NCBI GenBank assembly: GCA_018333535.1
Contig: JAGXTA010000083.1
Span: forward strand, 1 to 49,080
DNA: 49,080 nucleotides
Source: Deltaproteobacteria bacterium
Lineage (GTDB): Bacteria; Desulfobacterota; BSN033; UBA1163
Direction of reading: 5' to 3'
Shown here piece after piece: positions 5,840 to 31,598 of this stretch. How positions within the stretch are numbered: the stretch's first letter is position 1; each line of letters starts with the position of its first letter. The position numbers were made by a program, and so were the translations under genes. The notes below the pieces were generated by a model. The model was not told the origin of the DNA, searched no databases, and saw nothing but the letters and a program-made list of their open reading frames with translations.

Positions 5840-7018
5840 TTATTTTGTGATTCTTATCCAATCGGTGAGCTTCTCACAGCTCCCATCCGGGCGGACCTTT
5901 CCGTAAAAGACGTGTTTTCCCCCCTGTCTCTCCATAGGACCATAAGTGACAGGGACACCGATACCCTGCCAATCCTTCAGGGTCTCCATGGCCTTTACCC
6001 AAGAATCGGGTGTTAGATTCCTTCCCGCTCTCCTCACCCCTTCAACAAAGGGTTCGGCAAAGCCAATCCCCGCGTAGTAAAAAAGTCCCCATCTTTCCTG
6101 GGGCTCCAATTGCTTTTGCCATTTTCTGTACTTCACCATCAAGGGGTGATTCGAATCGGGTAATTCCGAAAAGAAAGAATTGACCACGCCGACCCACGAA
6201 CCTTTTGTAATTTGCATCATGAGAGCAGAATCACAGAGGGTATTACTGGTGGCCCATTGAGCTTTAAAGCCGATTTTAGCAGCTTCACTCAAAATCAATG
6301 CTGCATGAACAGGCATTACCAACATGATCACAGCCTCTGCTCCCGATTTCTTCAGCTTTAGTACATGGGAACTTAAGTCTCGATCGGTCACTTCAGCTGA
6401 GACTTGGGCGACAAGATCGATCTCCTTATCTTTGAGATATCGCTCAACCCCCTCCAACCCTTGTTTCCCAAAGTCATCATTCTGGTAAAACATGGCAATT
6501 TTCTTAAAGCCCATCTTCGAGTGAAGAAGATCTGTTAGGTTATAGGCTTCATCGTCGTAAAGAGGGTAGAGTGCAAACAGGTATTTTTGAAAAGGGTGAG
6601 TCCAGTTACGGGCGCCACTGACTGGGCCGAACCAGGGTACTTTGTTCTCCATGAGGTAGTCACGGACGGCCATACCCGTTCCAGTCCCAACACCCCCGAT
6701 AACAGCAAATACCCCAATTTGGTCTACGAACTCTTTAGCAATGGCTTTAGTTTTTGCTGGTTGGTAAGCATCGTCGCGAATAGAATATTTAATCTTCCTT
6801 CCGTGGATTCCTCCTTCTTGGTTAACGATTTTGAAAAGCAACCCAGAACCCCTGGCCACTGCGCCCCAGGGCGCGCCAGGTCCGGTCTGGGGTCCCCATT
6901 GACCCACAAGGATCTCGGTATCCGTCACACCACGAACAGGTTGGGATGAGGCAAGGGTTACCATTGAAAGAATGAAGAAAAACGACGACCCGAGAAGAGC
7001 TAAAGTTCGATGCACCAT
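5840..7018 (-). CDS. branched-chain-type ABC transporter substrate-binding protein (second copy)
   Basis: This is a 392-residue periplasmic binding protein of the Leu/Ile/Val type (Peripla_BP_6). A signal peptide with a hydrophobic core spans about residues 4-25. The mature part opens with TDTEILVGQWGPQTGP, as such proteins do. It is a clear paralog of the 9066-10244 protein: same length and long shared stretches such as SFFSELPDSNHPLMVKYR. The ATG at 7018 has GGAGG 7 nt upstream; an in-frame start at 7039 does not. It is last in the importer operon but separated from livF by 219 nt of AT-rich DNA, so it may have its own promoter. The ligand is unknown. Confidence 0.92.
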   Translation of the reverse strand: MVHRTLALLGSSFFFILSMVTLASSQPVRGVTDTEILVGQWGPQTGPGAPWGAVARGSGLLFKIVNQEGGIHGRKIKYSIRDDAYQPAKTKAIAKEFVDQIGVFAVIGGVGTGTGMAVRDYLMENKVPWFGPVSGARNWTHPFQKYLFALYPLYDDEAYNLTDLLHSKMGFKKIAMFYQNDDFGKQGLEGVERYLKDKEIDLVAQVSAEVTDRDLSSHVLKLKKSGAEAVIMLVMPVHAALILSEAAKIGFKAQWATSNTLCDSALMMQITKGSWVGVVNSFFSELPDSNHPLMVKYRKWQKQLEPQERWGLFYYAGIGFAEPFVEGVRRAGRNLTPDSWVKAMETLKDWQGIGVPVTYGPMERQGGKHVFYGKVRPDGSCEKLTDWIRITK

Positions 7019-7237: not shown

Positions 7238-8005
7238 TTACCGCCAGCGTTTCTTTCGTTTCCACCTCTGATAGCCTTTGGCCGATTCCTCGGAGCGGAT
7301 GCCTAAGTAGAATTCTTTGACATCTTCATCTTCCAAAAGGATGTTGGGGGTGTTGGCCGCCACGATCCTTCCGCTCTCCAGCACAAAGGCATAATCCGAA
7401 ATCTTGAGCGCCATCTTTGCGTTCTGTTCTACGAGGAGGATCGTTGTCCCTTCTTCGTTGATCGTCTTGACGATTCCAAAGATCTCCTTGACGAGAATGG
7501 GGGAGAGTCCCAGAGAGGGTTCGTCCAGCATCAATAATTTTGGTCGGGCCATCAGCGCCCGACCGATGGCCAGCATCTGCTGCTCTCCGCCGCTCAGGGT
7601 ACCGGCCCACTGGTCCTTCCTCTCGGCGAGAATGGGGAAGTGGCTGATCACGCGCTGGTGATCCTCCTTTACCCCCTTCTTATCCTTTCGGGTATAAGCT
7701 CCCATCTTTAAATTCTCATCGACGCTCAGCTCCGGGAAAACCTCTCTTCCCTCCGGGACATAGGAGATGCCGAGGTGGACAATCTCCTCCGCATCCTTTC
7801 CATCGATCCTCTTGCCCATGAATTCGATGGTTCCCTTATCCGGCTGGTCCTCGAGGAGCCCCATGACAGTTTTAAGGATGGTTGTCTTTCCGGCGCCATT
7901 GGCTCCAAGGATGGAGATAATCTGTTTCTCCTGGACTTCAAGGGAGACCCCTCTGACCGCCATGATTAAACCATAGAGGGTTTCAATGTTTTTTACTTTA
8001 AGCAC
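7238..8005 (-). CDS. livF: LivF-type ABC transporter ATPase
   Basis: This 255-residue cytoplasmic ATPase powers branched-chain-type import. Walker A is GANGAGKT (34-41), the ABC signature is LSGGEQQ (about 138), Walker B is LLMLDEP (about 160) and the switch His is replaced by Gln in LLVEQNAK, as is normal for LivF. The usual family length is near 235; this one has a basic tail (YQRWKRKKRWR). Start is GTG at 8005 with GGAGTT about 7 nt upstream. It pairs with LivG as a heterodimer. Confidence 0.94.
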   Translation of the reverse strand: MLKVKNIETLYGLIMAVRGVSLEVQEKQIISILGANGAGKTTILKTVMGLLEDQPDKGTIEFMGKRIDGKDAEEIVHLGISYVPEGREVFPELSVDENLKMGAYTRKDKKGVKEDHQRVISHFPILAERKDQWAGTLSGGEQQMLAIGRALMARPKLLMLDEPSLGLSPILVKEIFGIVKTINEEGTTILLVEQNAKMALKISDYAFVLESGRIVAANTPNILLEDEDVKEFYLGIRSEESAKGYQRWKRKKRWR

Positions 8006-9065: not shown

Positions 9066-10244
9066 TTATTTAGTGATCCTGATCCAGTCGGTTAACCGTT
9101 CGATATTTCCATCGGGCTTGACTTTGCCGTAGAATACGTGTTTGCCGCCCTGCCTGTCCTTCAGACCGGCGTAGGTGACGGGCAGGCCGATTCCCTGGAA
9201 ATCTTTCATGCCTTCCATGGCTTTTATCCAGCTCTCCGTTGTCAAATTTCTTCCGGCCCTTCTCACGCCTTCGACAAAGGGCTCGGCAAAGGCGATCCCC
9301 GCATAGTAGAAAACCCCCCATCGCTCCGAAGGTGCATATTTTTTATGCGCTTCACGGTATTTCACCATCAAGGGATGATTCGAATCGGGCAGTTCACTGA
9401 AGAAAGAATTGATCATTCCGGCCCATAACCCCCTGGTTATACCCATCATCAGGGCAGAGTCGGAAAGCGTGTTGCTGGTCGCCCACTGCGGTTTAAATCC
9501 GATTTTTGCAGTTTCGGCCAATAGCAATGCGGCATGGGTGGGCATGGTCCATATGATCACTGCTTCGGCTCCGGATTCCCTCAGTTTGAGAGCGTGGGTG
9601 CTCAAATCACGATCGGTCACCTCGGCTGAAATCTTGGCAACCAGTTTAATATTTTTCTTCAAAAGATACCGGTCCACGCCCATCACTCCCTGTTTTCCAT
9701 AGTCGTCATTCTGATAGAACATGGCAATCTTTTTGTAGCCCAGTTTCTCATGAAGGTAACCCGTCAGGTTGAAGGCTTCATCATCGTAAAGGGGATACAT
9801 GGCAAAGAGATATTTTTGAATGGGATGAATCCACTCATAAACTCCGGTAACCGGACTGAACCAAGGAACCTTGTTTTCCATTAAATAGTCTCGGGCCGTC
9901 ATTCCTGTGGCCACACCTACACCTCCGACGACCGCGAAGACACCGATCTGTTCGACGAACTCCTTGGCAATGGCTTTTGTCTTGGCAGGCATGTAGGAAT
10001 CATCGCGAAGGAAATATTTGAGTTTCCTTCCATGGATTCCCCCTTCATCATTAATGATTTTAACCAACAGATCCGTTCCCCGGGCAACCGCGCCCCATGG
10101 GGCGGCGGGTCCGGTCTGGGGCCCCCACTGCCCAATAAGGATTTCAGTGTCCGTCACTCCGCGAACCGCCTGAGCCGATGCCGGAGCAGTAACAAAAAAT
10201 GCAAAAACCAACAGACCAACAAACATCAAACTTTTCTTTACCAT
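9066..10244 (-). CDS. livK: branched-chain-type ABC transporter substrate-binding protein (first copy)
   Basis: This 392-residue periplasmic binding protein has a signal peptide at residues 1-24 ending in PASAQA. The mature N-terminus is VRGVTDTEILIGQWGPQTGP, and the protein ends in LTDWIRITK, as does its paralog at 5840-7018. It belongs to the Peripla_BP_6 family, which binds branched-chain amino acids, amides or aromatic and dicarboxylic acids; the ligand cannot be read from sequence. A very strong ribosome site (AAGGAGGAGG) precedes the ATG, fitting high expression. It lies between livH and livG in the operon. Confidence 0.93.
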   Translation of the reverse strand: MVKKSLMFVGLLVFAFFVTAPASAQAVRGVTDTEILIGQWGPQTGPAAPWGAVARGTDLLVKIINDEGGIHGRKLKYFLRDDSYMPAKTKAIAKEFVEQIGVFAVVGGVGVATGMTARDYLMENKVPWFSPVTGVYEWIHPIQKYLFAMYPLYDDEAFNLTGYLHEKLGYKKIAMFYQNDDYGKQGVMGVDRYLLKKNIKLVAKISAEVTDRDLSTHALKLRESGAEAVIIWTMPTHAALLLAETAKIGFKPQWATSNTLSDSALMMGITRGLWAGMINSFFSELPDSNHPLMVKYREAHKKYAPSERWGVFYYAGIAFAEPFVEGVRRAGRNLTTESWIKAMEGMKDFQGIGLPVTYAGLKDRQGGKHVFYGKVKPDGNIERLTDWIRITK

Positions 10245-16961: not shown

Positions 16962-19900
16962 GTGGAAGAAAAAACCATTAAACCAAGCCAAATTCTAACT
17001 GGCACACTCTTCAACGAGCCTATGAGGGTGGAGACGGTCCGTGCCAATGGGCCTGACACATGGATAGTTGGGTTGGTTGGCACCCAATCGGAGCGGTTCC
17101 GGAGCGTTACCCTTACTTCACGAGATATTGAAGCGCTAACCATCTTTGATGTTACCTCTACTTATGACGGTGACGGCCGCCTCCTTCGACTTGGCCTGCA
17201 GGCTTACTCGCTTGGGATTGCTTATGAATTTGATCCATACTTCGGGCTCTCCATCTCACGTGTCGATCCATTGCCACACCAGCTTGAGGCCATCTATGAT
17301 TACCTCCTCAAGCTTGCCCGTGTCCGATTCCTCCTGGCTGACGACGCAGGCGCTGGTAAGACAATTATGGCAGGGCTCCTTATTCGGGAACTGAAACTCA
17401 GGGGGTTGGCAGATCGCACCCTGATCGTGTGTCCTGCGAACCTTACCTTTCAGTGGCAGAGGGAACTCAATGAGAAGTTCGATGAGAAGTTCAAGGTATT
17501 AAAAGGTGGGGAAATCCGTGACCAGTTTGGTATAAACCAGTGGTTGGAACAAAAACAGGTTATCACTTCCCTCGATCTCGCAAAGCGTTCAGAAATCCTA
17601 CCTGGATTGCGCCAAGTTCATTGGGATCTCACCATCGTGGACGAGGCGCATCGGATGTCCGCTTTTGATCTGGAGCACAAGACCTTAAGGTATCGTTTGG
17701 GTGAGCTGCTTCGTGATGCAAGTGATCACTTACTCCTTCTTACAGCAACGCCTCACAAAGGGGATCCAATCAATTTTAGTTTCTTTTTACAACTTCTCGA
17801 CCAGGATGCCTATGCCGATGTCCGCTCTATCCGGGAGGCAATGAATCAGCGAAGGGCTCCATTTTACCTTCGACGGACCAAGGAAGCCATGGTCTACTTT
17901 CCGGAGCGTCGGCCTGATGGAACATGGGTGGCCGAGAAGATTTTCACCAAACGAATCCCCCATACCGTGGATTTCCAGATTGACGGCGCTGAATTCGATC
18001 TCTATCGCGATGTTACTCGTTTTGTGAAACAGCAAAGCGCTAAAGCTGCTGCTCAGGGTGATGACCCCCGTGCCCGTGCAGTTGGATTCCTCATGTCCCT
18101 GTATCAACGCCGTCTTGCTTCAAGCACCCATGCCATGCGGCGCTCCTTAGAAAATCGTGCTAAAAGGCTTGAAGTGGGATTAAAGCGTGCCCACGAAATA
18201 ATCAGTTTGGTTCCTCCCGACCTTCCCGATCCAGAAGAGATCGAAGAGATGGAGGATTATGAACGAGAAAAATTAGAGAAAATGTTAGACGCCATTACCC
18301 TCGCTGCGAACGAAGAACAGATCCGTGAAGAGACCGATAAGTTGAAGCAACTTGCAGGGCAAGCCCAGTTGGTCGAGGATTCGGGCACGGAGGCCAAGTT
18401 ATCACGTTTAAAAGACCTTCTTCATCAAGAGGGTTTTTTCGACCACCCCGAACAAAGGCTTCTCCTCTTCACTGAATTCAAAGACACCCTCGACTACCTG
18501 ATGGGTCGTTTAAGAGAGTGGGGCTTTAAGATTGGATGCATTCATGGAGGCATGAAATCCGGCTTCCGGGATCAACCTGGCACCCGACTTTACACAGAGC
18601 AACAGTTCAAAGATGGAGAAATCCAGATCCTGGTTGCTACTGAGGCAGCTGGGGAAGGGATCAATCTCCAGTGCTGTCATATTCTTTTTAATTATGACAT
18701 TCCCTGGAATCCGAACCGACTTGAACAGCGAATGGGCCGTATTCATCGCTATGGCCAGAAGAGTGATTGCCTAATTTTTAACTTTGTAGCAACGAACACC
18801 ATCGAAGGTAAGGTGCTTCAGCGTCTTCTCGAAAAGCTTCAGGAGATCCGGGATGCCCTTGACGACGATGCAGTCTTCAATGTGATTGGAGAAATTCTTC
18901 CAGCAGCTCACATCGAACGGGTTCTTCGTGATTATTATGCTGGACGCTTAGGAGATGCAGACCTGGAGGACCGCCTTCTTAAAAATGTTGATGAGAAACA
19001 ATTCAGGGCCATCTGCCAGAATGCTCTTGAAGGCCTCGCATCGAAAAAGCTAAACCTTGAGATGCTCGTCGAACGCCGTGCCAGAGCCCAGGAGCGCCGT
19101 GTGGTACCCGAAACAATTGCTCGTTTTATGCGCGAATCTGCAGATTATATAGACTTTGCCCTAAAAACCCATTCTTCTCTTCCGCACACTTTTGATCCGG
19201 GAAGAACACCAACGACACTAAGGAACTACGAGAGCCAGCCTGACTGGAAGCTTTCACCATTGGTTACAAAGTATCCACGATTCTCAACAGATCGTGATAC
19301 TGCCGAAACGAACAATCTGGAATGGGTGACGCCTGGTCATCCACTCTTTGAAGCTCTGCGCCGTCATGCCTTTATCCTGGCACAGGGAACTTTTGGTAGG
19401 GGAGCCTGTTTCTATTCTCTTCAACATGATACTCCGGCTCGTCTGGACTTCTACCGAGCACGTGTGGTTGACGGCCTTGGTCAGGTGATCCATGAGCGTC
19501 TCTTCGTAGTGGAGCTGACGGCCAATGGAGAGGCTCGTTTGCAAGAGCCCAGCGTACTTGGAAACTTATCCCCTACTAATTTACCAGAAAATCTTCCATT
19601 AATTGCATCTCTCCCAGAGGCCACTGCGTGGCTCAATGAAAATGGCCTCATGCCTTTCTTGGAAGAAGTTCGCAACGAACGCCTATCTGAGATTGATCGT
19701 ATTGCAGCCCATGTAGAATTGTCACTTACCGAGCTTCTTCAGAAGGCTGATGAGGAGATTGGCAGATTAGCTTCTGAAGTGGAAAGAAAAGCTCTTGGAG
19801 CTGAGGGACGTCTTGCTCAAGCAGAATCCCGTCACTCAGATCTTTTAGCTCGACGAGAGAGACGCCGCCTTGAATTGGATAGGCAGCGCGCCCTTTCTCT

Positions 19901-20396
19901 TCAGTCGGTTGAGCGTATAACCAGTGTACTCATTCTCCTGCACCCTGAGAGGAAGTCACCAGAGGTTCGGCGTCTACAACCAGATCCGGAAGTTGAAGCA
20001 ATAGCGATGCAGGTGGCTATGGAGTATGAGAAAGAAAAAGGTCGTCAGGTTCATGACGTTCATGAAAAAAACTTTGGGTATGACTTGACGAGCCTGGATG
20101 TAAATTCGGGTGAGCTTCGGCTCATTGAGGTTAAAGGTATAGGTGCGACAACTGGAAGTGTTCTACTTACACCAAATGAAAAAAGGGTCGCTGAAGATCG
20201 TCGTGACTGTTACTGGCTTTATGTAGTTACAGACTGCAAAAGTGATCCCAAGCTTCAAAACCCCATCAAAGACCCAGCCCGCCTCCGGTGGCACGAAGTT
20301 AAAAAGGTCGATCATTACTATCTATCGATAGATGCCGTAACCCAACCGATGCAGGTGAGAGAGGGAGAAGTCCCTTACGGAGATGGAAAGAAATAA
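16962..20396 (+). CDS. SNF2-family helicase with C-terminal DUF3883 nuclease-like domain
   Basis: This is a 1144-residue superfamily-2 ATPase. Walker A is DDAGAGKT (about 127-134), the DEAH box is at about 227-230, and motifs V-VI lie at GEGINLQCC (about 564) and RMGRIHRYGQ (about 589). The C-terminal DUF3883 domain (about 1020-1120) has GYDLTS and IEVKG (about 1054-1058), matching the D...ExK pattern of PD-(D/E)XK nucleases. The overall plan resembles DrmD-like helicases of defence systems. In the locus it probably translocates on DNA. Start is GTG with only a weak ribosome site. Its 3' end has a diverged partial copy at 22905-23084. Confidence 0.88.
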   Translation: MEEKTIKPSQILTGTLFNEPMRVETVRANGPDTWIVGLVGTQSERFRSVTLTSRDIEALTIFDVTSTYDGDGRLLRLGLQAYSLGIAYEFDPYFGLSISRVDPLPHQLEAIYDYLLKLARVRFLLADDAGAGKTIMAGLLIRELKLRGLADRTLIVCPANLTFQWQRELNEKFDEKFKVLKGGEIRDQFGINQWLEQKQVITSLDLAKRSEILPGLRQVHWDLTIVDEAHRMSAFDLEHKTLRYRLGELLRDASDHLLLLTATPHKGDPINFSFFLQLLDQDAYADVRSIREAMNQRRAPFYLRRTKEAMVYFPERRPDGTWVAEKIFTKRIPHTVDFQIDGAEFDLYRDVTRFVKQQSAKAAAQGDDPRARAVGFLMSLYQRRLASSTHAMRRSLENRAKRLEVGLKRAHEIISLVPPDLPDPEEIEEMEDYEREKLEKMLDAITLAANEEQIREETDKLKQLAGQAQLVEDSGTEAKLSRLKDLLHQEGFFDHPEQRLLLFTEFKDTLDYLMGRLREWGFKIGCIHGGMKSGFRDQPGTRLYTEQQFKDGEIQILVATEAAGEGINLQCCHILFNYDIPWNPNRLEQRMGRIHRYGQKSDCLIFNFVATNTIEGKVLQRLLEKLQEIRDALDDDAVFNVIGEILPAAHIERVLRDYYAGRLGDADLEDRLLKNVDEKQFRAICQNALEGLASKKLNLEMLVERRARAQERRVVPETIARFMRESADYIDFALKTHSSLPHTFDPGRTPTTLRNYESQPDWKLSPLVTKYPRFSTDRDTAETNNLEWVTPGHPLFEALRRHAFILAQGTFGRGACFYSLQHDTPARLDFYRARVVDGLGQVIHERLFVVELTANGEARLQEPSVLGNLSPTNLPENLPLIASLPEATAWLNENGLMPFLEEVRNERLSEIDRIAAHVELSLTELLQKADEEIGRLASEVERKALGAEGRLAQAESRHSDLLARRERRRLELDRQRALSLQSVERITSVLILLHPERKSPEVRRLQPDPEVEAIAMQVAMEYEKEKGRQVHDVHEKNFGYDLTSLDVNSGELRLIEVKGIGATTGSVLLTPNEKRVAEDRRDCYWLYVVTDCKSDPKLQNPIKDPARLRWHEVKKVDHYYLSIDAVTQPMQVREGEVPYGDGKK

Positions 20397-20439: not shown

Positions 20440-21810
20440 TTGAAACAAGCAGATTTAAGAAAATTGATTAAAGGCGGCGAAACTGAGACTATTGAGTTCA
20501 AAGCATCCTTTGATAAGGAGACCCTTGAGACATCGGTAGCTTTTGCAAATACAAAGGGCGGGATCATTTTAACCGGTGTTTCTGATAAAGGTGAAATAAA
20601 GGGCATTCAGATTGGAAAAGAAACGCTGAGAGATTGGGCGAACCAGATTTCTCAGAGCACCGAACCTCGGATCATCCCTGAAATTGAAATTGGCACAATA
20701 GATGGGAAGAATGTCGCCGTTATCCGGATTAAGGAGTTTCCTATCAAACCTGTATTTGTAAAAGGGAGATGTTTTAGAAGGGTGGGAAATAGCAATCGAG
20801 TGATGCAAGCGCGTGAAATTGCAGAGATGCATTTCCAGTCAACAGGAATGAGCTGGGATAGACTTCCCGTAACGAATGCCCCCATAGGCGAAATTGACCT
20901 TGAGAAAGTCAAGCAATATATTGAAAGTGCAAAAGATGCAAGGAGAAGGAAAATCAGTGGTGGCGAAAAACCACTACAAGTTCTTGAGAAGCTTGAGTTA
21001 ATAAAGGACGGAAAGCCTACATGGGCCGCAATTCTTCTCTTCCACAACCATCCCCAACGCTTTCTTTCTCAAGCAATGATACATTGCGGGAAATTTAAAG
21101 AAGAAACAATGGTTATTGATGACAGGATGATTGAAGGCGTCATCATCGAACAGATAGAAGAGGCCATGGATTTCATCCGTAAAAATATCAATGTGAGATT
21201 TGTTATGACGGGTAAGCCGGCAAGGGAAGAAGTCTGGGACTATCCACTTGAAGCGCTGAGAGAAGCAGTGATCAACGCAGTATGCCACCGCGACTACACG
21301 GTTCCATCCAATACGGAAGTGAGAATATACGACAATGAATTGATTGTTTGGAACCCAGGTGGATTGCCTTTGGGTTTAACAGTGGAAGACCTTTATAAGC
21401 CTCACCCTTCTATCCTGCGGAATAAAGGAATAGGTGGGATTTTCTACGATATGGGTTTGGTTGAACAGTGGGGGAGCGGAATAGATAAAATGCGAGGGGC
21501 ATGCATCAAAGCTGGGATTCCCGAACCAAAGTTTGAAGAGCATCAGGGGTTCAGAGTGATTTTCAGGAAGGATATCTACACAGAGGAATATTTACAAAAA
21601 CTAAGCCTGAACGAAAGGCAAATTAAAGCGGTAATGTATGTAAAAGAGAAGGGAAAAATATCGAACGCTGAATATCAAAATCTGTCGGGAGTTTCTCGGA
21701 TTACATCCTCAAGAGAATTGAGATCTATTGTTGATAAAGGAATTTTTCAAATGGTAGGCAGGGTAGGCAAAGGAACTAAATATATCTTAAAAGAATCAAT
21801 TGCATCATGA
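20440..21810 (+). CDS. AlbA_2/HATPase_c_4 protein (Schlafen-like N-terminus), embedded cargo
   Basis: This is a 456-residue protein. The N-terminal AlbA_2 domain has TETIEFKASF (15-24) and the glycine-rich FANTKGGIILTGVSD segment (35-49); this fold is shared with Schlafen-type nucleases. The middle holds a GHKL-like ATPase domain (EALREAVINAVCHRDYT, 271-287; WGSGIDKM, about 344). The last 70 residues look like a winged helix. Family members are annotated as transcriptional regulators or putative RecG-like helicases; several occur in defence loci. The TTG start follows GAGGG by about 6 nt. It starts 43 nt after the SNF2 gene. Its end is duplicated downstream, suggesting the present stop truncates a longer ancestor. 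Confidence 0.85.
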   Translation: MKQADLRKLIKGGETETIEFKASFDKETLETSVAFANTKGGIILTGVSDKGEIKGIQIGKETLRDWANQISQSTEPRIIPEIEIGTIDGKNVAVIRIKEFPIKPVFVKGRCFRRVGNSNRVMQAREIAEMHFQSTGMSWDRLPVTNAPIGEIDLEKVKQYIESAKDARRRKISGGEKPLQVLEKLELIKDGKPTWAAILLFHNHPQRFLSQAMIHCGKFKEETMVIDDRMIEGVIIEQIEEAMDFIRKNINVRFVMTGKPAREEVWDYPLEALREAVINAVCHRDYTVPSNTEVRIYDNELIVWNPGGLPLGLTVEDLYKPHPSILRNKGIGGIFYDMGLVEQWGSGIDKMRGACIKAGIPEPKFEEHQGFRVIFRKDIYTEEYLQKLSLNERQIKAVMYVKEKGKISNAEYQNLSGVSRITSSRELRSIVDKGIFQMVGRVGKGTKYILKESIAS

Positions 21811-22425: not shown

Positions 22426-22443
22426 TTTTTAATGGAGGAACCT

Positions 22444-22623
22444 ATGCCAGCAATTGCATCTCTTGAAGATTTGAAAGCTGCCCAGGAAGATCTTCTTGCG
22501 GCAAAAGATCTGGTTGAGTTGAAGGCGACATTTAAAAAGTGGCGAAACATCGGATGGAAGAATATCTGCAAGTTGTGGCTTCAGGAGAGCACCCCGGAGA
22601 AATTGAAGGGTGAAGGGAAATGA
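22444..22623 (+). CDS. 59-residue orphan protein within the defence locus
   Basis: This is a small charged, probably helical protein (MPAIASLEDLKAAQEDLL at the start, FKKWRNIGWKNICKLWL in the middle). I recognise no family. It is likely to be translated because GGAGG lies 5 nt before the ATG, in a region otherwise made of repeats. The Trp/Lys-rich centre could bind nucleic acid or membrane. It may be a second cargo gene or a remnant. Confidence 0.5.
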   Translation: MPAIASLEDLKAAQEDLLAAKDLVELKATFKKWRNIGWKNICKLWLQESTPEKLKGEGK

Positions 22624-22904
22624 GGTTTTCATTATTTCGGTGAGATGGGATGAAGTTGCATTTTCCCCTACATCCCCATCTCCGCAAAGACGCCAAAGAC
22701 GCCATCAGGCCAATCCACCCCTCTCCCCTGGTGTGAGAGCTTGCCTGCCGAAGCGTTGGCGAAGGCAGGGGTGTGGGTACGGGGGAAGCAGGTTTCATCC
22801 CCCACTTTAGAAAAGGGGCAAGTGGGGATTTGAACAGGGTAAAAGACAGGGTAATATTTATCGCCACTTTTCTCCTCCCCCTCGACGGGGGAGGGCGAGG
22901 GTGG
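22624..22904. repeat. repeat-filled spacer
   Basis: This gap holds a TTTCATCCCCCACTTTAG-AAAGGGG hairpin (22795-22825, kin to 22290), a GCCTGCCGAAGCGTTGGCGAAGGCAGG palindrome (22741-22770), and a CTCCCCCTCGACGGGGGAG hairpin (22874-22892). No gene is visible. Confidence 0.55.
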
Positions 22905-23084
22905 GGGTGGCCCCGTCTCGAATGGCATAAAGTTCACCCTGAGCAGCGTTTGACCGCTGCCGAACGGGTTAAGAAGGTTGATCATTATTATCTGTCGATA
23001 GATGCTGTAACACAACCTATGCAGGTACGGGAGGATCAAGCGCCCTATGGCAGGACCACTGGCCCCCGGGGAGAAGATTTGTAA
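22905..23084 (+). pseudogene. remnant of a second SNF2-DUF3883 gene 3' end
   Basis: The encoded tail VKKVDHYYLSIDAVTQ and PMQVRE is identical in protein to the end of the SNF2 gene (20302-20375), while the DNA differs at many third codon positions. The preceding RLEWHKV also matches RLRWHEV of the intact gene. An 11-residue insertion separates the two blocks. The remnant's TAA overlaps the uvrD ATG as TAATG (23082-23086). Upstream the similarity ends in repeats, so this is only a scar. The synonymous divergence points to a distinct, once-selected homolog rather than a recent copy. Confidence 0.8.
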
Positions 23085-25036
23085 TGGCTTGGGATGATAA
23101 CCTCCTGCCAGAACAAAGAACGGCTGCAGCACATACAGGCAGTCACGTCAGATTGCTGGCCGGACCGGGCACGGGTAAGACCCTTACTCTGACACGGCAT
23201 GTCTGTTTCCTTGTTGCCGAGCGGAATGTGTCGCCTGCATATGTCTTAGCGTTCACATTCACTCGGGCTGCTGCCCGGGAACTTCGGCAACGTGTTGAGC
23301 TGGAGCTGGGGGAGGGACAATGTCCTCGCATCTCAACACTTCATTCTTTTGCACTCCGTCAACTACTAAAAAACGCTACTCGTATCGCCGACTTACCCCA
23401 GCCTCTTCGTATCGCGGACGATTGGGAAGAGCGTAACATCATCTTGGAAGACCTCAAAACCCTCATTAACTTGCGTCGTATCAGCGAAGCCCGCGACCTT
23501 TTGAACGAGCTTTCGGCCGACTGGCAAAGCTTAACGGTGGACGAGGCAGATTGGGAAAGACGTTTTCCCAATCCTCGCTTCCTCGGCGTATGGAGAGAGC
23601 ACCGACGAATCTACGGGTACACGCTGCGGTCGGAACTCGTCTATCAACTGAAAAAAGCTCTTGAGCAAAGAGGGGATTTCGAACTGGAAGGCCCGTTGGA
23701 ATATCTCCTTGTGGACGAGTACCAAGACTTGAACCGTTGCGACCTGGCTGTAGTCCACGAGATCGTTTCACGTAACGTCGAGCTGTTCATTGCAGGAGAT
23801 GACGACCAGAGTATATATGGGTTTCGCAAAGCCCATCCTGAAGGCATTAGAAGGTTTCCTCGCGACTACGAAGGAGCGGAGGAGCTTTTTCTGGAGATAT
23901 GCAAACGGTGCGACTGTGGTATTCTTGACCTTGGCCTCTTTGTTGCGCAACAAGACCCACGGCGTGTTGATAAGCGAATACAACCCGAGCCCGGCAGGGA
24001 ACAAGGTGAGGTCGCACTCTTGCGATTCACGGACCAGGATGCAGAAGCTATAGGTATTTCCCGTCTTTGCTCTCACCTTGTAGAACGCCATGGGCTGCAA
24101 CCTGACGATATCCTGATTCTTCTCCGATCCGACCACAATGGGGCATTCTCTGCTCCTATCCGGGAGAGACTCGAAGAAGCAAACATACCAGTCTCATCCG
24201 CAACAGATACGGCAAATCCATTTGATAACGCTGATGGCAGGGCCTTTTTGGCATTTATGAGGTTGGCTGTCAACCGCGAGGATAGCTTAGCCTGGCGCAC
24301 TCTTTTTCAACTCTGGTGCAATGGCATCGGTTTGGGTGCGATTGGTGTTGTTTACGACCTTGCCCGCGGTCGCGGTGTGAGCTTTGCACAGACTTTGCTC
24401 ACCGCCCATGACGACGCTAATATCCTACCGAGCAGCTATCGGTTCCGTATTTCAGAGGCTATTCGCCGCGTGCTGGATCGGCTGGAGGAATTGTTTCCTA
24501 CTGACACTCAAGAAGAGTTTGAACCGTATGAAAGACTAATGGATGTAGTCCGGACAGCAGTAGAATCCTTCATCGGAGACGAGGAAGTGCGTAAGTCTGT
24601 TTTGGTGAAGGTAGGACAGGCTGCGGGAGCGGTTGAAGCTAAATCAATTCAGGAAGTAGTCCGGGCGACCGAAGTGGCAAGTGAGGATATCGAGCAGGAG
24701 ATCGCACAGGGAAAAGTCAATATCCTTACGATGCACCGGGCGAAAGGGCTCACTGCCAAGGCTATCATTGTGGCCGCAGTCGAAGACCAATACATTCCGG
24801 GCCGTGCTCAAGGCGACGCTGTCGATGACGAGCGGCGTCTTCTGTACGTCTCATTGACTCGCGCAAAGCATCACCTTTTTGTGACTTACTGCGACAGGAG
24901 AACAGGACCGCAGCGGCATACCGGCCGCGATAGCGGAAGGGTTGCCAGGTCCCTTAGCCAATTCTTGGTTGACTGCCTTCATACCCCTCAAGACGGCAGG
25001 ACTTTCGTTGACAATCTGGCAGAGGAAAATGAATGA
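23084..25036 (+). CDS. UvrD/PcrA-like superfamily-1 helicase
   Basis: This is a 650-residue 3'-5' helicase-type ATPase. Motif I is GPGTGKT (27-33), motif Ia TFTRAAARELRQRV, motif II VDEYQD (about 210-215), motif III DDDQSIYGFR (about 238-247), motif V TMHRAKGLTAKAI (about 549) and motif VI RRLLYVSLTRAKH (about 584). It is shorter than housekeeping UvrD (about 720) and lacks the usual C-terminal extension. The start overlaps the stop of the SNF2 remnant (TAATG); the end overlaps the methylase start (ATGA). The tight coupling suggests it works with the methylase and is a core member of this locus. Confidence 0.93.
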   Translation: MAWDDNLLPEQRTAAAHTGSHVRLLAGPGTGKTLTLTRHVCFLVAERNVSPAYVLAFTFTRAAARELRQRVELELGEGQCPRISTLHSFALRQLLKNATRIADLPQPLRIADDWEERNIILEDLKTLINLRRISEARDLLNELSADWQSLTVDEADWERRFPNPRFLGVWREHRRIYGYTLRSELVYQLKKALEQRGDFELEGPLEYLLVDEYQDLNRCDLAVVHEIVSRNVELFIAGDDDQSIYGFRKAHPEGIRRFPRDYEGAEELFLEICKRCDCGILDLGLFVAQQDPRRVDKRIQPEPGREQGEVALLRFTDQDAEAIGISRLCSHLVERHGLQPDDILILLRSDHNGAFSAPIRERLEEANIPVSSATDTANPFDNADGRAFLAFMRLAVNREDSLAWRTLFQLWCNGIGLGAIGVVYDLARGRGVSFAQTLLTAHDDANILPSSYRFRISEAIRRVLDRLEELFPTDTQEEFEPYERLMDVVRTAVESFIGDEEVRKSVLVKVGQAAGAVEAKSIQEVVRATEVASEDIEQEIAQGKVNILTMHRAKGLTAKAIIVAAVEDQYIPGRAQGDAVDDERRLLYVSLTRAKHHLFVTYCDRRTGPQRHTGRDSGRVARSLSQFLVDCLHTPQDGRTFVDNLAEENE

Positions 25037-28000
25037 TCCCCAAAGAATGTAAACGACTGGCGGAGGTGGATTTTCCGATTGCGGTGGTGTCTAAGCATTC
25101 GGCACGGGAGAAATCCATCCGCCATGGCCATCCTTCGACATTGCATCTTTGGTGGGCAAGACGGCCCCTGGCTGCCTGTCGCGCAATGCTTTTGGGACTC
25201 CTTCTTCCTGACCCATGTGATCCTCATTGCCCAGAGGATTTCAAATCAAAAGTGCGGAAACTTCTACCAAAGGTTCAAGGAAATCCTGGGCCGGAAGACA
25301 TTGATCTTCGAAAAGGCATTCTGAAATTTATCGGTGATTTTTCAAATTGGGATCTTTCTTCAAATCAAACCTACCTTGAAGTTTCCCGCGGCCTTGTTAA
25401 AGCGGCGCATCCAGAAGAAATGCCACTTGTCGTTGATCCCTTTGCGGGTGGCGGTTCAATTCCGCTTGAAGCGCTGAGACTCGGATGCGAGACGTTCGCA
25501 AGCGACCTTAATCCCGTGGCGTGTCTAATCCTGAAAGTAATGCTTGAAGACATACCTCGACATGGTCCTGAGTTAGCGGACGAGTTAAGGCGAGTTGGCA
25601 AGAATATTAAAGAAGCCGCAGAGAAAGAACTGAAAGAATTCTATCCTGATGATCCTGACGGCTCCAAACCTATTGCCTACCTTTGGGCAAGAACTGTGAG
25701 ATGTGAGTCTCCAAATTGTGGGGCGGAGATTCCGTTGATGCGGTCTTTTTGGCTATGCAAAAAGGCGAATCGGAAAAGGACATTACGGTATATAATTGAA
25801 AATGTAGGGGCGACCTATGGTGGTCGCCCAGAAGAAGGGCAGGCGCAGAGACCTGCCCCTACAAAGACCATCCGGTTTGAAATCTTCGAACCAAAGAGTG
25901 AGAGTGAAGTTCCAGCCGGAACAGTCACACGAGCCAAAGCAACTTGTCTCCATTGTGGAACGGTACTTTCTCCAGAGAGAGTGCGCGCCCAGCTTGTGAC
26001 CCAACAGGGTGGAGCAGATGTGATCTTTGATGAGAAAGGTAACCGGATCGGTGGGGCACGTCTGCTTGCCGTTGTAACACTCAAACTCGGCGAGCAAGGA
26101 CGACACTATCGACTTCCGATTCCCTCTGATTACAAGGCAGTATGGATGGCTATGAAGGCCTTGGAGAAGCTGAATGTTACAACATTACAAAATGGAATGA
26201 ACCGAGTCCCGGATGAACATTTACCACCTATCGGCACATTAGGATTCCGCGTTCAACGTTATGGTATGCTTCAGTGGGGCGACCTCTTCGCAGCCCGGCA
26301 GAAGCTGGCGTTGATCGCTATTGCAAAGCTTGTTGAGATTCTGGGGCAGAAAGACTCAAACCAAATAAGCAAAGAAGCCTTGGCTCTTTCTCTCGGAAAG
26401 GTGCTTCGTCATTGCAACGTTGTAAGCAAATGGCACCGAGGAAGCGAAACAGTCGCAGGTGCCTTCGGTATGCAAGCTCTCCCAATGTCGTGGGACTTCC
26501 CAGAGATGTTTCCGCTAGTCTCGTATGCAGGTGGACTTGATGACGGGATAGAAGACGTGACCGAGCCGGTTTCAACCATGGCTCAAGCCTTAAACAAACC
26601 TGGTCAGGTTCAAACCGCAGACGCTACTGTGCATCCTCTACCAGATGATACCTGCATGGTCTGGTTTACCGATCCCCCGTACTATGACGCGATTCCCTAT
26701 TCGGATTTATCCGATTTCTTTTTTGTATGGCTCAAAAGAACAATTCCAGGCAACCCTTTATTGAATGATCCTTTTGACCCAGAGAACCCTTTGACTCCGA
26801 AAATATTCGAGATAGTCCAAGATGAAACCAAAAAATTCAACGGAACCCCGAAAGATAGAAAGTTTTTTGAAATGAGGATGGCTTCATCATTTGCCGAAGG
26901 ACGTAGAATCCTGAAAGACGATGGCGTTGGCTGCGTTGTCTTCGCGCACAAAACTACCGAAGGATGGGAAGCTCTTTTATCAGGAATCGGTCGAGCTGGC
27001 TGGACAATCACTGGATCATGGCCAATCGCAACGGAACGCGGAGCCAGACTCCGTGCTCGTGAATCCGCCGCTCTTGCCACCAGCGTCCATCTTGTTTGTC
27101 GGCCGCGGCCCCGCGATGCCCCAGTCGGGGATTGGGGGGATGTTCTTCGAGAGCTTCCAAAACGAGTTGGGGACTGGATGGAGCGGCTTCAGTCTGAAGG
27201 AATCCGTGGTGCGGATCTTGTATTTGCATGTATTGGACCTGCTCTGGAGATTTATAGCCGTTACTCAAAAGTCGTGGATGCTGAGGAACGAAAAATTCCA
27301 TTAGGCGGTGATCCAGAGGCCACGGAGCCTCATCGTAAAGGCTTCTTAGCCTATGTCTGGGAGGTCGTCGGTCGAACAGCACTTGAGCACGTTCTTGGAA
27401 CTGCGGAGGCAAAGGCTCGCAATAGCGCAGCAGGGGCATTAGAGGAAGACGCTCGACTCACCGCACTATTTTTATGGACTCTCCAAAGCACAAATGGTAA
27501 TGGGGCAAAAGGTGTTGAAGAGGAATCTGAGGAGGGCGAGGGGAACGACGAAGAAGAGGAAACACCAAAGAAAAAGAAACAAGGATACAGCTTGATCTTC
27601 GATGTGGTTCGGCGTTTTGCTCAGCCTCTTGGCATTCATCTCCCTGAATGGGAAGGGAGGGTCATTGAGACCGAGAAAGGCGTGGTTCGTTTGCTTTCGG
27701 TGAAGGAACGAGGAAAACAACTTTTTGGAGAAGAAAACATTTCTGTAGCCGGATTCAGAATTGAGGAGCAGGCCCGACATGATCCACAGATGAAGTTCAA
27801 TTTTGCTGTTGAATCTGAAGCTGGAACAGTCCCCAAAATTAAAGGTCGGCGAACAAAATCCCCCCCACCCCCCTTTTCCAAAGTGGGGAAAGAGGGGATT
27901 AAAAAGCAAGACTTGCCCGCTGGAGTTTCAGCGAAAGCGGGGACCACAACTCTTGACCGTGTTCATGCGGCCATGCTTCTTCAAGCAAGTGGTCAAACAA

Positions 28001-28146
28001 ATGCTTTGCGGGCACTACTCAAAGCCGAACAAGACCGTAGTCCAGATTTTTTGAGGCTTGCTAATGCCCTCTCTGCGTTATATCCTAAAAATAGCGAAGA
28101 AAAGCGTCTGCTGGACGCAATGCTTTTAGCAATGCCGAGGACGTAA
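25033..28146 (+). CDS. DUF1156 adenine-specific DNA methylase with zinc ribbon
   Basis: This 1037-residue protein probably methylates adenine in DNA to mark self. DUF1156 covers about 5-70 (FPIAVVSKHSAREKSIRHGH, then LHLWWARRPLAA). The SAM-binding motif is VVDPFAGGGSIPLEA (about 132-146). A split zinc ribbon has CESPNCG (about 224) and CLHCG (about 306). The catalytic motif is DPPYYDA (about 546). Two places look foreign: residues about 257-277 and 938-967 are encoded by palindromic repeats that kept the frame. An acidic, Lys-rich linker is near 830-860. It overlaps uvrD by ATGA. Confidence 0.9.
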   Translation: MIPKECKRLAEVDFPIAVVSKHSAREKSIRHGHPSTLHLWWARRPLAACRAMLLGLLLPDPCDPHCPEDFKSKVRKLLPKVQGNPGPEDIDLRKGILKFIGDFSNWDLSSNQTYLEVSRGLVKAAHPEEMPLVVDPFAGGGSIPLEALRLGCETFASDLNPVACLILKVMLEDIPRHGPELADELRRVGKNIKEAAEKELKEFYPDDPDGSKPIAYLWARTVRCESPNCGAEIPLMRSFWLCKKANRKRTLRYIIENVGATYGGRPEEGQAQRPAPTKTIRFEIFEPKSESEVPAGTVTRAKATCLHCGTVLSPERVRAQLVTQQGGADVIFDEKGNRIGGARLLAVVTLKLGEQGRHYRLPIPSDYKAVWMAMKALEKLNVTTLQNGMNRVPDEHLPPIGTLGFRVQRYGMLQWGDLFAARQKLALIAIAKLVEILGQKDSNQISKEALALSLGKVLRHCNVVSKWHRGSETVAGAFGMQALPMSWDFPEMFPLVSYAGGLDDGIEDVTEPVSTMAQALNKPGQVQTADATVHPLPDDTCMVWFTDPPYYDAIPYSDLSDFFFVWLKRTIPGNPLLNDPFDPENPLTPKIFEIVQDETKKFNGTPKDRKFFEMRMASSFAEGRRILKDDGVGCVVFAHKTTEGWEALLSGIGRAGWTITGSWPIATERGARLRARESAALATSVHLVCRPRPRDAPVGDWGDVLRELPKRVGDWMERLQSEGIRGADLVFACIGPALEIYSRYSKVVDAEERKIPLGGDPEATEPHRKGFLAYVWEVVGRTALEHVLGTAEAKARNSAAGALEEDARLTALFLWTLQSTNGNGAKGVEEESEEGEGNDEEEETPKKKKQGYSLIFDVVRRFAQPLGIHLPEWEGRVIETEKGVVRLLSVKERGKQLFGEENISVAGFRIEEQARHDPQMKFNFAVESEAGTVPKIKGRRTKSPPPPFSKVGKEGIKKQDLPAGVSAKAGTTTLDRVHAAMLLQASGQTNALRALLKAEQDRSPDFLRLANALSALYPKNSEEKRLLDAMLLAMPRT
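25803..25863. repeat. palindromic repeat inserted in frame within the methylase gene
   Basis: The outer arms TGTAGGGGC and GCCCCTACA enclose two hairpins, GGGCGACC...GGTCGCCC and GGGCAGG...CCTGCCC. The 61-bp block translates without a stop as a Gly/Arg/Pro/Gln-rich peptide between the two zinc-ribbon halves. This repeat type is usually intergenic. Confidence 0.75.
27850..27950. repeat. second in-frame repeat block near the methylase C-terminus
   Basis: AAATCCCCCCCACCCCCC with a downstream AAAGTGGGGAAAGAGGGGATT belongs to the same hairpin family as 8950, 22288 and 32808. It is followed by GCCCGCTGGAGTTTC-AGCGAAAGCGGGG, another palindrome. Translation gives a Pro-rich peptide (KSPPPPFSKVGKEGIKK) and GVSAKAG before the conserved tail resumes at TTLDRVHAAML. 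Confidence 0.65.
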
Positions 28147-28832: not shown

Positions 28833-31598
28833 ATGGAACCCTGGTACAAAGTTGCGATGCCGAGAAAGGAAGTTCGAGAAGGTCGGTCGTTCAACCCGGA
28901 TGAGTTTGCGATTGCTCTTGAACAGGTGGTGGCTGGCACTGCTCCTCAAGACTACCGGGAGCCAAAACTATTCTTCTCTCGAACCTGCTTCACACGAGCC
29001 CTTTGTGAGCATACAGGGATGACACTTCGCCGGTTGGCCGGTAAAACCGAGAATACAGCTCCTATTCTTGCACTCATCACCCAATTCGGGGGTGGTAAGA
29101 CCCATACACTGACAGCCCTTTACCACTTAATTCAAAATAGAGACAAGGCAAGAAAGATTGAAGAACTGAGTAAGCTTCTTCAAGAAACTGGTCTCCCAGA
29201 AATCCCGATCGCTCGTGTGGCGGTATTTGTGGGGAATGCGTGGGATCCCTCCGCAGGGGCTGAAAACCCATGGATTGACATTGCTCGCCAGCTTGCGGGA
29301 GATGATGGGATTACCGCATTAGGACCTGAAGCCAAGACAAAGGCCCCCGGAACGAATAATCTCCGAAAGCTCATAGAGGCGGCAGGAGGCCATGTCCTGA
29401 TCCTATGCGATGAGGTACTCAATTTTCTTAGTCGCCACCGGGATAAAGCCGAGTCCTTCCGGGATTTTCTTGCAAACCTTGTTAGAGCTCTTACGGGTAC
29501 AACAGGAAGCGCTGCGATGATAAGTTTGCCTCAAAGCAAGCCAGAAATGAGTGACTGGGATCTAAGGTGGCAAGATATTATTGTCAAGGAAGTTAATAGA
29601 GTGGCGAAGAACCTCATTTCGAACGATGAAGCTGAGATTAGCGAGGTAGTTCGGCGCCGACTTTTTGAGGACTTGGGGCATGAACGTGTCAGAAAAAATG
29701 TGGCTAAAACCTTCGCCGATTGGTGCTTTGAACGTCGAGCACAGCTTCCAAGCGAGTGGACAGCTGTGGATACAGCAACAACTGAGGCTAAAGCACGTGA
29801 ATCTTTACAAAAGCGATTCGAGGTATGTTATCCATTTCATCCCTCAACACTATCCGTATTTCAAAGAAAGTGGCAGGCACTTCCTCATTATCAGCAGACA
29901 CGCGGAACATTAGCTATGTTCGCCCAGTGGATTTCATTGGCCTTTAGTGAAGGCTACCAGCGAGCAAGGCGGGAACCGCTTATCACCCTCGGCTCAGCCC
30001 CGCTTGATGTACCTGAATTCAGAGGAGTTGTCCTTGGCGCGCTCGGTGAACCTCGGCTTCAACCTGCCATTGAAGCCGATATCTCTGGCCCTCAATCACA
30101 TGCTCGGGCACTCGACGCCGATACTAAAGGAGCACTGCGTGACATCCATCGTCGTGTGGCCGCAACAATTCTATTTGAATCCTCCGGCGGCCAGGTAGAA
30201 AAATTAGCTCACCTCCCAGAATTACGTTTTGCCTTAGGAGAACCAGAAGTTGACACAACGTCCATTGATAATGCAGCTTATGCCCTTGAGTCGAAAGCGT
30301 TCTTTATTAGTCGTATAGGTTCAGATGGCTTCAAGATCTATCATAAAGCAACGATCCGAAAAGCGGTTAATGACCGGCGTGCGTCACTTGATGAGGATGC
30401 AGAAATAAAACCAACGATGAAGAGTCTCGTCAAAAAAGAGTTTGAACGTGGAGCGAGCATTCCTCTCGTGCCTTTTCCGAACGATGGCTCAGCCATTCAG
30501 GATTCTCCTAAATTAACACTTGTTGTCATGGACCCAGAATTAGAGTGGAGTGGAGCTGGTTCTCTGCGGCAACAAATTGCCGAGTGGACCAAGCAGCATG
30601 GAAAGTCTCCCCGACTCTATCCGGGGTCGCTCATATGGTGTCTGAAAAAACCAGGACGTGATTTTAGGGAGAAGGTGGAACTCTGGCTTGCATGGAAGCG
30701 AGTTTTTAGCGAAATCACTGAAGGAACTCTGGGGGCCGATTTTGATCGAGCAGATCGTGCAGATATACAGAGCAAAGTCAAAGATGCGGAAGAGGATGCC
30801 AAGGATGAGGTCTGGGGTGCGTACCGTTTCGCAGTTATTTTTGATAGCCGAGGAGCTGACGGTCTCAAACCTATTGACCTCGGTGCAGGCCATGCAAGCA
30901 GTGGGGAGACACTTTGTGGAAGAGTGATCACAGCCTTAAAGTCGCAGGCACTTCTGAATGAATCCGTAGGAGCTGGTTATATAGAGCGGAACTGGCCTCC
31001 TGCGTTAAAGGAATCTGGCGCATGGCCGCTTTCAAGCCTCCGACAAAGTTTCTTAAACGGGTCATTAACACGACTTTTAGATCCAGATACAACTTTACGG
31101 AATAAGATCGTTGAATTTGTTGGTAAGGGTGACTTTGGGCTTGCCTCAGGACAAAAATCAGTTGGAACTTACGAAAGGGTTTGGTTTGAAGAACAAATCT
31201 CTTTGGATGAAGTTACGTTTGAGTCTGGTGTTTTTCTGTTGACCAAGGCCAAGGCAAAAGCTCTTAAGGCTGGAATGAAATCGGAACCTGGAGCCGTGGT
31301 CACTCCTGTTACTCAACCAGTGGATGAGGAGGTTATAAAATCCGAAATAGGAACAGAACCCAGAACCGGCATTCAAACAAGGACACTTCGCTTGGTTGGG
31401 ACTGTTCCCCCCGAGATATGGAACCGTCTTGGCACAAAAATCATTCCCAAACTCAAATCCGGTTCAGATCTCAAAATCGGAGTCGATTTTTCAGTTACCG
31501 TAAATGTTGAATCAGCGCGAAGCATAGAATCCGACCTCCGCCAAGTCTTAGAGGATTTAGGCCTCAAAGGCAAAATCCAAATCGAACAATCAGAATAA
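28833..31598 (+). CDS. DUF499 ATPase of the defence locus
   Basis: This is a 921-residue DUF499 protein. Walker A is QFGGGKTHTL (about 83-92), and a Walker B-like ILCDEVLNFL is at about 190. The remainder is largely helical, ending with a charged segment (VDFSVTVNVESARSIESDLR). DUF499 ATPases accompany DUF1156 methylases and a helicase in defence loci; their step in the mechanism is not known. It starts 43 nt after the toxin gene. The C-terminal 80 residues follow a Pro/Glu-rich linker (about 820-840). Confidence 0.9.
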   Translation: MEPWYKVAMPRKEVREGRSFNPDEFAIALEQVVAGTAPQDYREPKLFFSRTCFTRALCEHTGMTLRRLAGKTENTAPILALITQFGGGKTHTLTALYHLIQNRDKARKIEELSKLLQETGLPEIPIARVAVFVGNAWDPSAGAENPWIDIARQLAGDDGITALGPEAKTKAPGTNNLRKLIEAAGGHVLILCDEVLNFLSRHRDKAESFRDFLANLVRALTGTTGSAAMISLPQSKPEMSDWDLRWQDIIVKEVNRVAKNLISNDEAEISEVVRRRLFEDLGHERVRKNVAKTFADWCFERRAQLPSEWTAVDTATTEAKARESLQKRFEVCYPFHPSTLSVFQRKWQALPHYQQTRGTLAMFAQWISLAFSEGYQRARREPLITLGSAPLDVPEFRGVVLGALGEPRLQPAIEADISGPQSHARALDADTKGALRDIHRRVAATILFESSGGQVEKLAHLPELRFALGEPEVDTTSIDNAAYALESKAFFISRIGSDGFKIYHKATIRKAVNDRRASLDEDAEIKPTMKSLVKKEFERGASIPLVPFPNDGSAIQDSPKLTLVVMDPELEWSGAGSLRQQIAEWTKQHGKSPRLYPGSLIWCLKKPGRDFREKVELWLAWKRVFSEITEGTLGADFDRADRADIQSKVKDAEEDAKDEVWGAYRFAVIFDSRGADGLKPIDLGAGHASSGETLCGRVITALKSQALLNESVGAGYIERNWPPALKESGAWPLSSLRQSFLNGSLTRLLDPDTTLRNKIVEFVGKGDFGLASGQKSVGTYERVWFEEQISLDEVTFESGVFLLTKAKAKALKAGMKSEPGAVVTPVTQPVDEEVIKSEIGTEPRTGIQTRTLRLVGTVPPEIWNRLGTKIIPKLKSGSDLKIGVDFSVTVNVESARSIESDLRQVLEDLGLKGKIQIEQSE

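Follow-up and report, generated by a model that had tools for sequence, protein, structure and literature searches.

In the type VI secretion system (T6SS) effector-immunity arrays of Vibrio cholerae, new modules are taken up at an upstream anchor that is conserved, and the old genes shift downstream; remnants of the old 3' ends persist, and homology-facilitated illegitimate recombination has been proposed as the route (Kirchberger 2017, PMC5361080). Among orphan cdiA-CT/cdiI modules and in Rhs loci, displaced 3' ends pile up 5' to 3' behind the intact gene, a pattern that has also been tied to illegitimate recombination (PMC6336857, PMC3967940). For restriction-modification genes, insertion with long target duplication, which leaves a direct repeat of the target at both flanks, has been described (Nobusato 2000, as cited in PMC3031569).

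Here we analysed a stretch of 49,080 nucleotides (the window) with an Hma locus in which the end of the core gene hmaA is repeated in front of a cargo gene, uvrD (the repeated end is hereafter the scar). The logic of entry, displacement and remnants is the same as in the T6SS arrays, although those consist of toxin and immunity genes, whereas Hma is a restriction-like anti-phage operon with unrelated cargo and has the additional feature of two-part junctions that include, in frame, the start of the following core gene. CDI and Rhs systems show the same displacement of 3' ends behind an intact gene, but what is displaced in them is the toxin end, which varies, whereas in Hma a conserved hmaA end is displaced and the variability resides in separate cargo genes behind it. 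Long target duplication likewise involves defence genes with a flanking direct repeat; however, its repeats copy one target, while the Hma repeats are of different lineages and often come with the start of a second gene. Insertion with long target duplication is unfit to explain two repeats of different lineages, and we ruled it out for the window, as the window's own hmaA tail is nearer to that of a congener than to the scar and an insert is present only in the scar.

The name Hma comes from PADLOC (PMC8565338); a 2026 study renames it a DUF499-centred BREX-related system (PMC12839542), and literature cited there reports that HmaA acts against phage. Both sources describe the same core genes and note auxiliary effectors in or near the locus. 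In the excerpts of open-licence literature searched, neither remnants of gene ends nor junctions between cassettes nor a way for cargo to enter are mentioned for Hma and related systems, and we found no report for Hma of a displacement process resembling that of the T6SS and CDI arrays, which is weak evidence of novelty. Little is understood of how multi-gene anti-phage operons gain accessory genes and stay intact, and scars offer a readable record: they can order past insertions and could mark genes elsewhere that once stood in an Hma locus (Fic genes, AAA ATPases and others). They also suggest that cargo is added beside conserved core-gene ends, and they make the route of entry testable by genome survey and transformation experiments.

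A repeated hmaA end in front of uvrD

With the gene order hmaA, cargo, hmaB and hmaC, all on the plus strand, the locus belongs to the Hma (DUF499-centred BREX-related) anti-phage systems (PADLOC and Pfam) and is predicted to protect against phage. The gene hmaA (16962-20396; PADLOC HmaA, E = 6.9e-170) encodes an SNF2 helicase with SNF2 and Helicase_C domains and a NOV_C (DUF3883-like) C-terminus, hmaB (25033-28146; PADLOC HmaB, E = 5.7e-104) a DUF1156 adenine methyltransferase, and hmaC (28833-31598; PADLOC HmaC, E = 7.9e-87) a DUF499 AAA+ ATPase. Between hmaA and hmaB lie, in order, a gene for a protein with the Pfam domains SLFN_AlbA_2 and HATPase_c_4 (20440-21810; hereafter AlbA), a small ORF (22432-22623), the scar (22914-23084) and a UvrD/REP-type helicase gene, uvrD (23084-25036; Pfam UvrD-helicase, E = 6.3e-48), which shares an ATGA overlap with hmaB. 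The small ORF, whose status as a gene is uncertain, matches no Pfam family; by eye, it carries a KKWRxIGWK motif and resembles small ORFs adjoining hmaA-tail or hmaB-start remnants in two other loci (L095 and L133).

Positions 22914-23051 of the scar re-encode the last ~34 residues of hmaA (source 20280-20396). Against the whole SNF2 protein the scar scored 58.5 bits in tblastn, compared with 25.4 bits for the best of 500 shuffled intervals, which rules out chance similarity. The scar frame reads RLEWHK-VHPEQRLTAAER-VKKVDHYYLSIDAVTQPMQVREDQAPYG-RTTGPRGEDL* up to its stop at 23084, and the C-terminal end of hmaA reads RLRWHE-VKKVDHYYLSIDAVTQPMQVREGEVPYG-DGKK*. Over 28 codons (VKKV..PYG) the two differ by 12 silent and 3 replacement codons (78.6% nucleotide identity), with zero replacements in the 19 codons of KKVDHYYLSIDAVTQPMQV. 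The scar's TAA (23082-23084) overlaps the uvrD ATG, giving TAATG at 23082-23086, and a Shine-Dalgarno-like GGGGAGAAG (23068-23076, plus strand) within the end of the scar would serve uvrD. A dispersed intergenic repeat (CTCCCCCTCGACGGGGGAGGG..., 22874-22909), with ~30 copies in the genome, abuts the left edge. The first-pass annotation had described a repeated SNF2 tail, mostly silent differences and a TAA overlapping uvrD, all of which our analysis confirmed; the segment that it called a scar (22905-23084) holds a real repeat, but homology begins only at ~22914. It had seen the SNF2 tail and uvrD and missed both the Hma identity of the locus and the two-part scars of relatives.

In the 4.39 Mb genome, the only credible matches to the scar are the scar itself and the SNF2 gene. 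A 12-codon insert in the scar (22932-22967) is missing from the window's own hmaA; it occurs once in the genome and is thus not a dispersed genomic repeat, and its folding showed nothing remarkable. Elsewhere the insert was found only in the scar of a related locus, L006, and no intact hmaA carrying it was found. Furthermore, the hmaA tail of the window shares 90.5% identity with that of a congener (G007) but only 78.6% with the scar, indicating that the scar is not a recent self-copy. Had the window's own hmaA end been duplicated locally in tandem, both copies would have the same orientation in the same locus, as they do, but such a duplication is ruled out by their 21% nucleotide divergence, set against the closeness of the hmaA tail to the congener's, and by the insert shared with the L006 scar; we give it next to no credence.

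The scar represents the displaced 3' end of an hmaA gene, not a small gene, and it was probably displaced by the insertion of cargo into the Hma operon. In the mechanism that we propose, hmaA would once have stood directly in front of uvrD, and accessory genes would be gained when related Hma loci recombine. An incoming piece would pair at one end with the conserved 3' region of hmaA and be joined at its other end without homology. The new cargo would then lie directly behind hmaA, and the old cargo would move downstream, still carrying the former hmaA end on its front. The route may be homology-facilitated illegitimate recombination or a single crossover with a circularised block; the data fit both. 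The tail may have been retained with uvrD because it holds the ribosome-binding site of that gene, and a similar Shine-Dalgarno-like motif lies in the hmaA-uvrD spacer of a relative (L043).

Related loci and the direction of insertion

In three relatives hmaA stands directly before a homologous uvrD (L043, 10 nt apart; L032, 0-6 nt; L073, 29 nt), and these junctions can be aligned with the scar-uvrD junction of the window. They support the earlier proposal that the helicase and uvrD genes were once adjacent, but not that they overlapped as TAATG: none of the three junctions has this overlap, and a cargo-free relative with it, which the first-pass annotation had put forward as a check, was not found. 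No uvrD was found in 118 other related genomes, and no relative close to the window was found that has uvrD and lacks the AlbA cargo.

Different states are also seen within the window's own family. Behind hmaA stands AlbA in the window and an AbiE-like pair in L005 (G014), which by eye we take to be AbiEi-AbiEii, and the order in L006 (G013) is AbiE-like pair, hmaA tail, AlbA, with no hmaA in front of the pair and an intact hmaA further downstream. The AbiE-like pair is 92.1% identical between L005 and L006 over 1,660 bp, and the unit of hmaA tail, spacer and AlbA gene is 93.9% identical between the window and L006 (6084-7469) over 1,387 bp, with the same spacer (43 bp in the window). Such before and after states in related genomes are a feature of displacement arrays, and they indicate that an hmaA end that once stood directly before AlbA stayed there when other cargo entered.

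Another feature of displacement arrays, a recombinant anchor gene beside the newest insert, is seen in hmaA itself. Compared with the congener G007 (L004), the window's hmaA shows ~5.5% differences up to ~20091 and 17.6% over the last 306 bp (20091-20396, plus strand), which is likely a recombinant end; ~20091 is the best single breakpoint, the breakpoints not being base-exact. This mosaic fits a crossover within hmaA whose 3' end would have arrived together with the cargo. The recombinant may be the window's hmaA or that of the congener, and given another divergent tract upstream in hmaA, the mosaic 3' end may not stem from this insertion; relative to L005, the hmaA end is no more divergent than the remainder.

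The direct hmaA-uvrD junctions elsewhere and the mosaic hmaA end favour a direction in which AlbA is newer and uvrD older, so that the AlbA cargo would be the newer piece in this window. The same displacement may have run in the opposite direction, with scar and uvrD as newcomers joined at the hmaB side behind hmaA-AlbA; the unit shared with L006 suggests that hmaA-AlbA may be the older pair, and the two-part scars of relatives suit insertion at either end. We nevertheless consider this rather improbable, because comparison with a congener shows the hmaA 3' end to be recombinant and, unlike in several other loci, no resident hmaB-start remnant was found before the window scar; other traces of the direction may have been overwritten by the dispersed repeat that borders the scar on its left. 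The earlier claim that cargo was inserted by recombination with a related locus, leaving the resident gene end behind, is strengthened by the displaced hmaA end, its recurrence, the family set and the mosaic hmaA, while the preferred direction, with AlbA newer than uvrD, is tentative.

Remnants and in-frame linkers in other loci

A first scan yielded 80 relatives, and further loci were added later. When a model of the hmaA tail was run over all six frames, ten loci including the window had extra tails, every one on the hmaA strand. Among the 71 loci in which the hmaA end and the hmaB start are both intact, 13 contained hmaA-3' and/or hmaB-5' remnants between the core genes. Thus partial gene ends in the same orientation behind an intact copy, again a feature of displacement arrays, are present in many loci. 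No credible minus-strand remnant was found in the relatives; the sole minus-strand match, a weak tail in L125, was also found on the plus strand and was left out of the counts. A listed 'orphan hmaB start' in L011 proved to be the hmaB of that locus. Nearly all sequences are metagenome bins, such that single loci could be assembly errors; the remnant pattern recurs across independent assemblies and long contigs (L015, L119, L130).

The remnants measure ~25 to 90 of the 1144 codons, nearly all reach the gene end, and many are frameshifted or stopped (L010, L015, L040, L048, L095 and others). This variable extent and decay of the stand-alone tails rules out a conserved small gene, the finding that the first-pass annotation had said would refute its model; judged from their sequences, the remnants are relics. 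Its view of the scar as a record of how cargo enters such loci gains from this wide recurrence.

Many of the remnants have two parts. An orphan hmaA end is preceded by an hmaB start in L015, L029, L040, L045, L075, L080 and L110, and in the hmaB-hmaC interval, behind intact hmaB, an hmaC start is fused in frame to an hmaB end (L045, 13164-13382; L052, 11806-11961). The rule is the start of the downstream core gene followed by the end of the upstream core gene, which is what head-to-tail joining of hmaA-end/cargo/hmaB-start blocks yields. Of ten two-part junctions, including an hmaA start-to-end fusion in L111, nine are in phase, where one third would be expected by chance (p ~4e-4); with L015 and L040, which are probably related by descent, counted once, the same binomial gives eight of nine (p ~1e-3). 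These two loci (L015, 17246-17687; L040, 15169-15587; both Planctomycetota) apparently have the same hmaB-start/hmaA-end junction with different genes behind it.

Three linkers are complete ORFs from start codon to stop (two in L045, one in L052), and the first linker of L045 has ATGA overlaps with both of its neighbours, a HEPN gene in front and a Fic gene behind. Mini-ORFs made of an hmaB start also lie between cargo genes in other, more distant BREX-related subtypes (L130, 7677-7910; L131, ~7580-7725; L132, 7072-7245), two of the three flanked on either side by ATGA-type overlaps. We take the in-frame linkers as a hint that long operons are selected to keep their translation uninterrupted, a constraint seldom considered in the evolution of defence loci. 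One could go further and regard the remnants themselves as selected mini-genes, kept for translational coupling or for a useful peptide, as the proportion of junctions in phase, the complete linkers of L045 with overlaps on both sides and the silent differences of the window scar would suggest. We consider this unlikely, as lengths vary, many remnants carry frameshifts or stops, and of 46 codons compared between the scars of the window and L006, 12 have replacements and another 12 silent changes. Indeed, the later frameshifts indicate that the linker product itself is dispensable in the long run.

Blocks outside Hma loci

Blocks of hmaA end, cargo and hmaB start also occur with no complete hmaA or hmaB nearby (L111, L114, L116, L119). 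In L112, L115, L117 and L118 (6370-6645 in the last), an hmaA end stands directly before a Fic-like gene far from Hma core genes, and Fic genes behind displaced hmaA tails are probably former Hma cargo. The L116 block (genome G166; L169 3396-5794, equal to G166:C2 63395-65793) consists of an hmaA end, two cargo ORFs and an hmaB start and lies before an engB-like gene. Its flanks are 2.4 kb apart in G166 and only 33 bp, 37 bp and 315 bp apart in the congeners G276, G235 and G775, respectively; a site that is empty in three congeners indicates that a block can appear at an ordinary site; less probably, a complete Hma locus arrived there and most of it was later deleted. Integration linked to tRNA genes was rejected as a general explanation for the stand-alone blocks, as tRNAs lie near L114, L115 and L117 but not near the others.

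The L116 site also bears on whether the remnants could descend from tandem Hma loci, or from one decayed in place, whose middle was deleted, leaving core-gene ends between the cargo. Such deletions would yield the same hmaB-start/hmaA-end junctions, and deletion does occur in these loci: in L111 hmaA has a start-to-end internal deletion, and in L138 an hmaB start runs into the middle of hmaC, by appearance ordinary deletion decay. However, no tandem loci with full-length second core genes were seen among the loci read, the remnants are short throughout, and congeners have nothing inserted where the L116 block lies, so that we see little likelihood in this origin.

Returning to displacement by incoming cargo, a broader and more tentative picture is that Hma operons are integrase-free cassette arrays, in which blocks bounded by core-gene pieces join head to tail, in-frame linkers keep translational coupling, and blocks also land elsewhere as fossils tracing gene flow; we regard this as possible, with a lower probability than the displacement of the window scar itself. 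Pfam detected no recombinase family among the cargo proteins scanned.

Two further observations were made. In L069, a fragment of an hmaA start (1216-1332; 39 codons, 92%) lies 2.8 kb upstream of the intact hmaA, which hints that cargo may also occupy a third interval, ahead of hmaA. In the window, positions 5943-6242 and 9172-9471 form a 300-nt direct repeat with 72% identity within two minus-strand genes, probably paralogues and unrelated to the scar.
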